A DNA stretch of 24,414 bases from a virus: positions 1 through 24,414 of IMG/VR virus record IMGVR_UViG_3300044681_001142; one strand, written 5' to 3'. The position numbers and the translations under genes are program-made. The stretch's first letter is position 1, and each line of letters begins with the position of its first letter. The notes under the pieces were generated by a model, which saw only the letters and a program-made list of their open reading frames with translations, was not told the DNA's origin and searched no databases. Shown here piece after piece: positions 1 to 19,936 of the stretch.

Positions 1-21
1 ATAAAAAAAAGAGATTGAACG

Positions 22-1170
22 ATGAAAACTTTCAGCCAATTTAAATATGATTGTTTATTTGAAGTTGCTGGTCAGGGATTTGCTAAAATGAGTGACTATG
101 ATTTTGAACGTTGGGCAAAAGCAAATCCTGCCGCCGCTGAAAGGGCTAAAAAGATTAGAGATCAATTTAAAAAAACTCAGCAGCAAGCTCAACAAGCTGT
201 TGGGCAACAATCCAAATCACCAACACCTCAAGCTAAACCTTCAGGAAGGGCGAGACAAATTGTAGGGGGTGCTGGTAGATTTGTAGCAAAAGCTGGGGCA
301 CTAACTGCAGCTGATATAGCTGCAGATGCTGCAATATCAAAAATTCCTAATCCTCGGGCCAGAGAAACAACACAAGCGGTTAAAGATCTTGCAATGTTCT
401 CATCAACTCCAGTTCTATCTACTTTGGGTCTTTCTGGATCTTCTGCTCCAACTGGTGTTAGAGATGTTGGACCTTATAGAATACAAAAAAGAATAGATCC
501 CGGTGATTCAAATTCTGGATTTGATAAATTTTTAGCCACTGGACGTAATAAATCTGGGTACACTTATAATGATCCCAATGCAGAAAAAATCATAGCATAC
601 AGAAGAGATCGTGCTGGCAGTAAAAGTCCAGAAGATAAGCCAATTAGAGTTGGCGCAGCTAAATCTGGTGGCCAAGTTATTCCTGTACGTTGGGGATCTG
701 TTGCTGGTGAGAGGCGAGTAGGAACACCGGCTCAATCCGCATCGACACAAGCAGTGCAACAGTCTAGAAGAATTGCATCAAAAGCTAATGTTTATGGTGC
801 TACTAGAGGATCTGGAATTGTTGGAACTGGAGGACCAACTACTTTCAACCAAAAAGCTAATACAGTTACCACTGGCGGGAAGACAGTACAACTTCCTAAA
901 ACACAGGTTCTTCCTGGTGGTAGAGTAGGAGACCTTGCATATAAGGGAGGCAAGGCAACTTATCTTGCAAGACCTTCTATTGCTTCTAGAGATACTAATT
1001 TATTCTCTAGAATTTCTAGAGCAACTGGAATTGGTGGCCAGCGAGAAAGAGATGCTGCGGCTGCCAACAGAGAACGCCAGCAAGCAATGCAAAATACTTT
1101 AAGATATAGACAGCAACTTGGTATTACTGGAACTGGTGTTTCGAAGCCTCCAATGAAACCCCTAAGATAA
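22..1170 (+). CDS. Basic protein with T4 internal-protein-like leader; possible capsid-packaged protein
   Basis: I do not recognise a family for the body of this 382-residue protein. The first 14 residues (MKTFSQFKYDCLFE) resemble the capsid-targeting leader of T4 internal proteins (MKTYQEFIAEA type), which the gp21 prohead protease removes after a Glu in an (I/L)xE context; here LFE ends at residue 14, although the next residue is Val rather than the usual Ala/Gly. The rest is rich in Arg, Lys, Gln, Gly and Ala with no hydrophobic membrane segment, which fits a DNA-associated or internal head protein. An Ala-rich stretch (about residues 83-105) and many Gly/Ser-rich segments suggest low complexity. 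The ATG at 22 is preceded by AGAGA. It ends 55 bases before thyX and is separated from it by a promoter. A packaging role is inference; a plain hypothetical protein is the alternative. Confidence 0.6.
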   Translation: MKTFSQFKYDCLFEVAGQGFAKMSDYDFERWAKANPAAAERAKKIRDQFKKTQQQAQQAVGQQSKSPTPQAKPSGRARQIVGGAGRFVAKAGALTAADIAADAAISKIPNPRARETTQAVKDLAMFSSTPVLSTLGLSGSSAPTGVRDVGPYRIQKRIDPGDSNSGFDKFLATGRNKSGYTYNDPNAEKIIAYRRDRAGSKSPEDKPIRVGAAKSGGQVIPVRWGSVAGERRVGTPAQSASTQAVQQSRRIASKANVYGATRGSGIVGTGGPTTFNQKANTVTTGGKTVQLPKTQVLPGGRVGDLAYKGGKATYLARPSIASRDTNLFSRISRATGIGGQRERDAAAANRERQQAMQNTLRYRQQLGITGTGVSKPPMKPLR

Positions 1171-1172
1171 GC

Positions 1173-1201
1173 TTGACAAATTTGAACTCATAAGCTATAC
1201 T
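1173..1201 (+). promoter_or_regulatory. Sigma70-type promoter for thyX-phoH-replication cluster
   Basis: A perfect -35 box TTGACA (1173-1178) and a -10 box TATACT (1196-1201) are separated by 17 bases. Transcription would begin near 1208, giving a short leader before the thyX ATG at 1226. It lies in the only non-coding gap of this part, so it probably drives the downstream tightly packed genes with unmodified host RNA polymerase. Confidence 0.75.
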
Positions 1202-5871: not shown

Positions 5872-5894
5872 GCCCTCCTTATGGGGGGCTTTAT
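5872..5894 (+). terminator. Intrinsic terminator after gp32
   Basis: GCCCTCC (5872-5878), loop TTAT, then GGGGGGC (5883-5889) form a seven-pair stem with one G-U pair, followed by TTTAT. It lies eight bases after the gp32 stop and its T-tract overlaps the stop codon of the convergent gp53 gene, so it isolates the plus-strand replication cluster from the minus-strand baseplate genes. Confidence 0.8.
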
Positions 5895-19864: not shown

Positions 19865-19936
19865 GCCCTTGTAGTTAAACGGCTATAACAGTGCTCTTGT
19901 AAAGCACAATTCTCAGTTCGATTCTGAGCGGGGGCT
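19865..19936 (+). tRNA. tRNA-Thr(UGU)
   Basis: Acceptor GCCCTTG pairs with CGGGGGC (two G-U pairs), D stem GTT/AAC, anticodon stem GTGCT/AGCAC with loop CTTGTAA and anticodon TGT (reads ACA/ACN threonine), and T arm CTCAG-TTCGATT-CTGAG. The discriminator is T and CCA is not encoded. It starts six bases after tRNA-Leu, so both are probably cut from one precursor made from the promoter at 19497. Confidence 0.93.

Follow-up and report, generated by a model that had tools for sequence, protein, structure and literature searches.

A predicted capsid-targeted internal protein gene in a fragment of a T4-like cyanophage

The locus and its encoded protein

The window, by which we mean the whole 24,414-base stretch of DNA analysed here, is a fragment of a T4-like cyanophage, and the phage behind it is probably one of freshwater. 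Its first gene, ORF 22-1170, is followed in order by thyX, a short regulator, phoH, an exonuclease, gp33, gp59, two unknown ORFs and gp32. Parts of the window from 9947 onward have matches in the DSL-LC03 baseplate and tail region, and a tRNA-Thr lies at 19865. The features of the gene and its flanks are as follows.

1..21 (+): truncated 5′ region that may hold the last bases of a late promoter; it starts ATAAAAAA, which fits those bases
22..1170 (+): predicted gene for a capsid-targeted internal protein; complete ORF (ATG, 382 codons, stop), 382 aa
22..42 (+): putative targeting core MKTFSQF, residues 1-7; positions 1, 2, 4 and 7 (with 10) are the least variable among relatives, and 4 and 7 are the T4 targeting residues
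43..63 (+): remaining leader KYDCLFE, residues 8-14, with a predicted gp21 cut after E14 (alignment with relatives; motif L/I-X-E)
88..180 (+): short helical module MSDYDFERW..NPAAAERAKKIR, residues 23-53, common to S-CREM2 gp136; predicted helices at pLDDT 70-86
181..306 (+): Q/P/A-rich linker, residues 54-95; gap-filled alignment, pLDDT mostly low
307..741 (+): central cassette, residues 96-240; at least one other middle occurs among the relatives
742..1167 (+): conserved C-terminal module, residues 241-382, about 130 residues, with the most invariant columns and predicted beta strands and a helix
1173..1201 (+): sigma70-like promoter TTGACA-17-TATACT, matching 11/12 consensus positions, directly 3′ of the stop of ORF 22-1170

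The promoter at 1173..1201 could drive the next gene cluster (thyX, phoH and onward); over the whole region 28 sigma70-like sites were seen against 23.7 expected, which is no clear excess. A terminator-like hairpin (GCCCTCCTTATGGGGGGC) is present at 5872-5889, 3′ of gp32 and between converging ORFs.

The encoded protein begins MKTFSQFKYDCLFE, its first seven residues being MKTFSQF. The initial annotation had described a leader of this kind on a basic, low-complexity body, and that description was borne out. The protein carries 62 K+R against 26 D+E (pI 10.75), its composition is biased (A, G, R, S, K, Q, T and P abundant), and 185 of its 382 residues fall below pLDDT 50 in AlphaFold. A pI of 10 or above was found in 14 of the 481 genes of at least 100 aa in three related phages, family members counted in.

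Relatives were collected by viral-contig scans seeded with the window protein, alignment A1 and the DSL-LC02 protein. The best 80 of 127 relatives plus L157 were examined, and removal of open-ended, unknown-residue and duplicate entries left 46 distinct full-length sequences; the pI of these 46, drawn from the best 80 of 127 and L157, ranges from 10.2 to 11.6. The family comprises members in three named phages (DSL-LC02, DSL-LC03 and S-SRM01) and in many IMG/VR contigs. In DSL-LC02 and DSL-LC03, both freshwater cyanophages of Dishui Lake, the family gene also lies upstream of thyX and phoH, whereas the S-SRM01 relative occupies a different genomic place.

Database searches did not assign the protein to a known family. 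PHROGs held no family for its body at 0.001 or at 1, Pfam gave only sub-threshold matches for seven family proteins at E up to 1, PADLOC (a library of defence, not counter-defence) returned no match at 1 for four family proteins, and the family profile matched none of the solved structures searched. The AlphaFold model built from 31 sequences was poor (mean pLDDT 54, pTM 0.34) and Foldseek of that model found no PDB or BFVD match at 0.001; we therefore claim no fold. Likewise, a scan of bacterial and archaeal genomes gave 232 pattern matches but zero confirmed relatives of the window protein, so no host origin is claimed. The kind of protein, a capsid-targeted internal protein, is already known. 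Neither the family nor its reach or modular architecture was found described in PHROGs, Pfam, PADLOC or the accessible part of the open-licence literature, and that same part yielded no account of a capsid-targeting leader in cyanophages.

The family is marked by a late-promoter core. The sequence [TGC]ATAAATA lies at -24 to -34 in 45/45 relatives (the 46 from the best 80 of 127, minus L107), representing 39 distinct upstream sequences. The late core fell in range in 3% of shuffled upstream regions, and the background in three phages was 84/469 for other genes of at least 100 aa and 13/380 for shorter ones. Sullivan et al. used the T4 late sequence TATAAAT to seek cyanophage late promoters (PMC3037559). 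Only 21 bases precede the ATG in the window, too few to include the motif: the late promoter is read in the relatives, and the window copy is truncated. ATAAATA was also considered as a mark of all leader genes and rejected, as it was in range in only 3/16 of those in three phages; all three are family members, so the late core marks the family and not leader genes at large.

Leader conservation and the predicted cleavage site

In the capsid-targeting sequence of T4, positions 4 and 7 serve targeting and positions 8 and 10 serve processing by gp21 (PMC9026906). Among the 46 relatives (from the best 80 of 127), position entropy was lowest at 1, 2, 4, 7 and 10 (≤0.75 bits) and stayed above 2 bits from position 11 to position 30, the last examined. 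In the same set, MK....F opens 45/46 sequences, F or Y stands at position 4 in 44/46 and E at position 10 in 40/46. The DSL-LC02 relative starts MKTYREFVAEA, where IPII and IPIII of the T4 record have MKTYQEFIAEA. Loss of the leader among homologs had been named as a result that would speak against the initial annotation; the leader proved instead to be the conserved part of the N-terminus, with its minima at the T4 determinants, and the observation of a T4-type leader on a basic protein is thereby confirmed at the level of sequence. In the exceptional relative, L107 (about 1450-1560), a frameshift falls just after an intact leader, MKTFREFLNE, in the neighbouring frame, reflecting either a sequencing error or a recent loss.

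Such leaders recur in related phages. MK[TS][FY]xxF opens 16 of 868 non-overlapping ORFs of DSL-LC02, DSL-LC03 and S-SRM01, far above the controls: 360 position permutations of the same classes gave a mean of 0.16, with 13 for a near-identical permutation and 4 for the next highest. At S-SRM01 81722-84200 (L030/L033), three leader genes are consecutive, and two basic paralogs among them start MKTFQ[EQ]FQESAAIARGAL. The strict ten-residue pattern, searched as DNA (RTGAARNNNTWYNNNNNNTTYNTNNNNGAR), gave 35 matches in 13/16 phage records, and the reversed control pattern gave zero in 16/16. S-PM2, S-CBWM1 and the T7-like P-SSP7 contained no strict match. In T4 the strict pattern matched IPII, IPIII and gp61.1 only, and therefore misses the known cargoes IPI and Alt. 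The third of these matches, gp61.1 (NC_000866, 18966-19130; L208, L181), is a 54-aa protein starting MKTFKEFIKE. The window gene itself fits the seven-residue core and fails the ten-residue pattern.

This failure reflects the processing positions. The window protein has the targeting residues (MK start, aromatic at 4, F at 7), but residues 8-10 are KYD. In T4 IPIII, D at position 10 stops cutting there and leaves targeting unaffected, and the gp21 motif is L/I-X-E (PMC9026906). As residue 10 of the window protein is D, which would block a cut there, we expect cleavage after E14, where LFE at residues 12-14 aligns with the expected site of the relatives. With a slash at the expected cut, the aligned leaders are MKTFSNF-IVE/AAGTGF (L007), MKTFTDF-IVE/AVGSGF (L125), MKTFSQF-KYDC-LFE/VAGQGF (window, with an insertion) and MKTFSQF-QEDSLTV-ILE/QAGKGF (L082); the site thus keeps adjoining the mature start, with a spacer longer by 0, 4 or 7 residues. 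Accordingly, of the gp21-cut, T4-like leader first proposed, the resemblance in targeting stood and the canonical processing position did not, being KYD at 8-10 with LFE displaced to 12-14.

An [LI]xE motif falls within residues 8-20 in 43/46 relatives (from the best 80 of 127). An earlier rule that only E10-type leaders count was dropped, since in relatives whose leaders are longer a candidate site is still present after 12 or 17 residues. The V following the predicted cut in the window protein is unusual compared with the A found in gp23 and the T4 leaders; the gp23 proteins of four related records have, by motif, FLSE/A, FISE/A or MLTE/A at the expected propeptide end. The gp21 family PF03420 was detected in 4/5 related records; the remaining one is a fragment of 49 kb. 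No ORF of the window, a 24 kb fragment in which family comparison covered ORFs up to 5864, was identified as gp21. By analogy with T4, cleavage of the window protein by gp21 appears likely.

Leader proteins in T4 and in cyanophage virions

The window protein resembles T4 IPI, IPII and IPIII in that all are basic and combine an MK-T-[FY]-x-x-F leader with an L/I-X-E site, which in the window protein is a displaced and predicted one. The bodies of the three T4 proteins have the leader alone in common with one another (leaders were compared here for IPII and IPIII). The window protein differs from them in being about 2-4 times longer than IPIII and IPII, in a body without a known-family match, in its arrangement of linker, alternative middle cassette and shared C-terminal module, and in a predicted cut after 14 residues versus 10. 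A further comparison is T4 Alt, a larger protein and an ADP-ribosyltransferase: the prohead takes it up, gp21 cuts it, and it is ejected with the DNA (PMC9026906); Alt is a known enzyme, whereas the window protein matches no enzyme family. In phiKZ-like giant phages, SPN3US among them, ejection proteins lie inside the head and are cut by a gp21-related protease, in the accessible accounts; these are other phages and the likeness is one of principle only.

For the virion of cyanophage S-CREM2, 52 proteins detected by mass spectrometry are listed (PMC10665884, Table 3). We tested 218 CDS, of which 51 are virion-listed, leaving out the long tail fibre gene, which lies in two stretches. All 3/3 proteins matching the strict pattern [MVL]Kx[FY]xxF[LIVMF]xE were virion-listed (one-sided Fisher p 0.012), as were 5/5 matching the relaxed pattern [MVL]xx[FYL]xxF[LIVMF]xE (one-sided Fisher p 6e-4), which was composed after the S-CREM2 N-termini were known. 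These five are the SAM hydrolase gp6, gp13, the kinase gp14, gp136 and the cytidylyltransferase gp154; gp6 opens MKDFDSFLEE, gp14 VKRFDAFLTE, gp154 MKNFSSFLTE and gp136 MQTFSMFFSE. In addition, the Cas9-like virion protein gp12 (L159, 7704-10313, minus strand) has a leader-like LRFASFMAEA from residue 17, and its start may be misplaced.

Gp6, gp13, gp14, gp136 and gp154 all begin with the relaxed leader pattern, and gp136 shares the next 30 residues of the window type as well; past the N-terminus, no relation of the S-CREM2 virion leader proteins to the window protein was seen. Gp136, identified in the virion by 8 unique peptides, is 46% identical to window residues 1-46 (E 5e-8 in a single comparison). 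It was the top match of the family N-terminal profile among 2244 sequences, with E 3.3e-8 including the leader and 2.5e-4 without it. A tblastn search with gp136 at 0.01 found only itself in the phage collection.

The likeness of the leader to that of T4 might be accidental, the protein remaining in the infected cell. The window copy does miss the canonical processing positions; yet the leader is kept while the residues after it diverge, it recurs on unrelated proteins within the same phages at frequencies well beyond those of the controls, and the related N-terminus of gp136 is present in a virion. We consider accidental likeness very improbable.

The authors of the S-CREM2 study regarded non-structural virion proteins as perhaps encapsulated and perhaps contaminants, and in a word search of the accessible text neither capsid targeting nor internal proteins nor injection came up (PMC10665884). 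For S-SCSM1, both patterns were fixed beforehand, and the virion status of its NMNAT, though not its N-terminus, was known in advance. One of its two leader proteins is marked as virion (NMNAT is, SSCSM1_30 is not), giving no significant excess, and this proteome is neutral as a test of packaging. Our count of its virion-marked proteins was 48 against the 45 stated by the paper, and they include a translational repressor, so cytosolic proteins can enter such lists. S-CREM1 gave no support: in the accessible source, 14 virion proteins are given and the three strict-pattern genes are unnamed among them. Its NadR-like leader gene seems a poor fit for that set, described as four structural proteins, nine of unknown kind and one unmatched; this is mild evidence against packaging.

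NMNAT/cytidylyltransferase-like proteins carry the strict leader in 10/16 records (L182, L184, L188, L189, L194, L195, L197, L200, L204 and S-CREM1 173735-174868), seven being so annotated and three judged by eye (Syn9, S-CRM01 and an interrupted copy in G003). Such proteins are reported in the virions of S-SCSM1, S-CREM2 and S-CBWM1 (for S-CREM2, PMC10665884); the NMNAT of S-CBWM1 is reported in the virion, yet that phage has no strict leader match. The leader also opens a mildly acidic family of 102-109 residues in several cyanophages (L183, L186, L190, L191, L207 and L031), with the consensus MK[ST][FY]xQF[LIM]SES[VI]xIxGDFNG; it is not virion-marked in S-SCSM1.

Modular build, proposed function and alternatives

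The C-terminal module is conserved across the family. It holds 21/30 invariant columns of alignment A1 and 13/16 of alignment A2, and AlphaFold gives it blocks of pLDDT 57-81 as far as residue 370. The middle occurs in at least two versions. A Gly-rich middle replaces the window-type cassette in 6/9 proteins of alignment A1, and the window-type middle occurs also in L004/L082/L212 (a single contig), L005, L006 and L081; the cassette scan reached close relatives only and missed L081. In L081, the window-type middle and C-terminus (61% over its residues 93-396) are joined to another N-terminal stretch, which opens like L153 and L145. Middles swapped between constant ends would be the expected look of injected effectors tracking changing targets.

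The window protein is very probably packaged into the virus head. This is well supported by inference from the identity and conservation of the leader in sequence and from published mass spectrometry of the leader proteins of other cyanophages, and the late promoters upstream of relatives, the presence of gp21 among related phages, the basic charge and one virion proteome agree with it. The packaging proposed in the initial annotation is to that extent upheld.

We propose, with a probability of about three in four, that ORF 22-1170 encodes a T4-type internal head protein. It would be synthesized late and bound to the prohead core through MKTFSQF; the prohead protease gp21 would remove the leader, probably after E14, and the strongly basic remainder of 368 residues would stay in the capsid with the DNA. 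At infection the remainder would be ejected into the cyanobacterium, where the middle cassette, the variable part, would act on a target in the host. Taken alone, ejection into the host is a somewhat favoured prediction, drawn from analogy with T4.

The chief rival is a structural prohead-core or DNA-condensing head protein, loaded by the leader and without action in the host. Its strong basic charge and disordered body would suit such a role, a C-terminal module kept constant beside a varying middle might be expected of a part that binds DNA or the core, and loss of IPIII in T4 leads to aberrant heads (PMC9026906). Against this, the middle cassette differs among relatives, the leader proteins of related phages include enzyme-like ones that scaffolding would not need, and T4 Ip1, Ip2 and Ip3 act in the host against restriction enzymes of the GmrSD type, each blocking a different one (PMC12373910). 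A purely structural role is thus possible, but we hold it to be unlikely. Because each of Ip1-3 blocks a restriction enzyme, anti-restriction is a reasonable candidate role for an ejected protein; that the window protein counters host defence is, by this analogy, a tentative suggestion. Host takeover, also raised in the initial annotation, is likewise no more than a candidate role.

Alternatively, the ejected protein might have the envelope or membrane of the host as its target and, for example, aid DNA entry. The 6/9 alignment A1 proteins with a Gly-rich middle (L007, L012 and L001 among them) have long G/A-rich stretches with small-residue repeats, resembling Gly zippers. However, the middle of the window protein is a different cassette, and the Pfam Gly-zipper families gave no match for seven proteins at E up to 1, and we regard a membrane role as improbable.

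The T4-type internal head protein proposed here could belong to a wider set. The capsid-targeting leader may be a general postal code of T4-like cyanophages, each loading its own set of ejected cargo, and not a peculiarity of T-even coliphages, a reading to which we give even odds. The cargo would include a nucleotidyltransferase of the NAD-synthesis type in many phages and, in S-CREM2, a SAM hydrolase, a kinase and possibly a nuclease resembling Cas9; freshwater phages would load a modular family that retains its leader and C-terminal module and swaps the effector middle. Of all phage proteins, internal proteins are some of the earliest to be inside the host cell. With a leader tag that predicts them, hypothetical and non-structural cyanophage virion proteins would become a defined set of candidates for injection, and the tag would be relevant to the question, raised by the S-CREM2 authors, of whether such enzymes are packed or are contaminants (PMC10665884).
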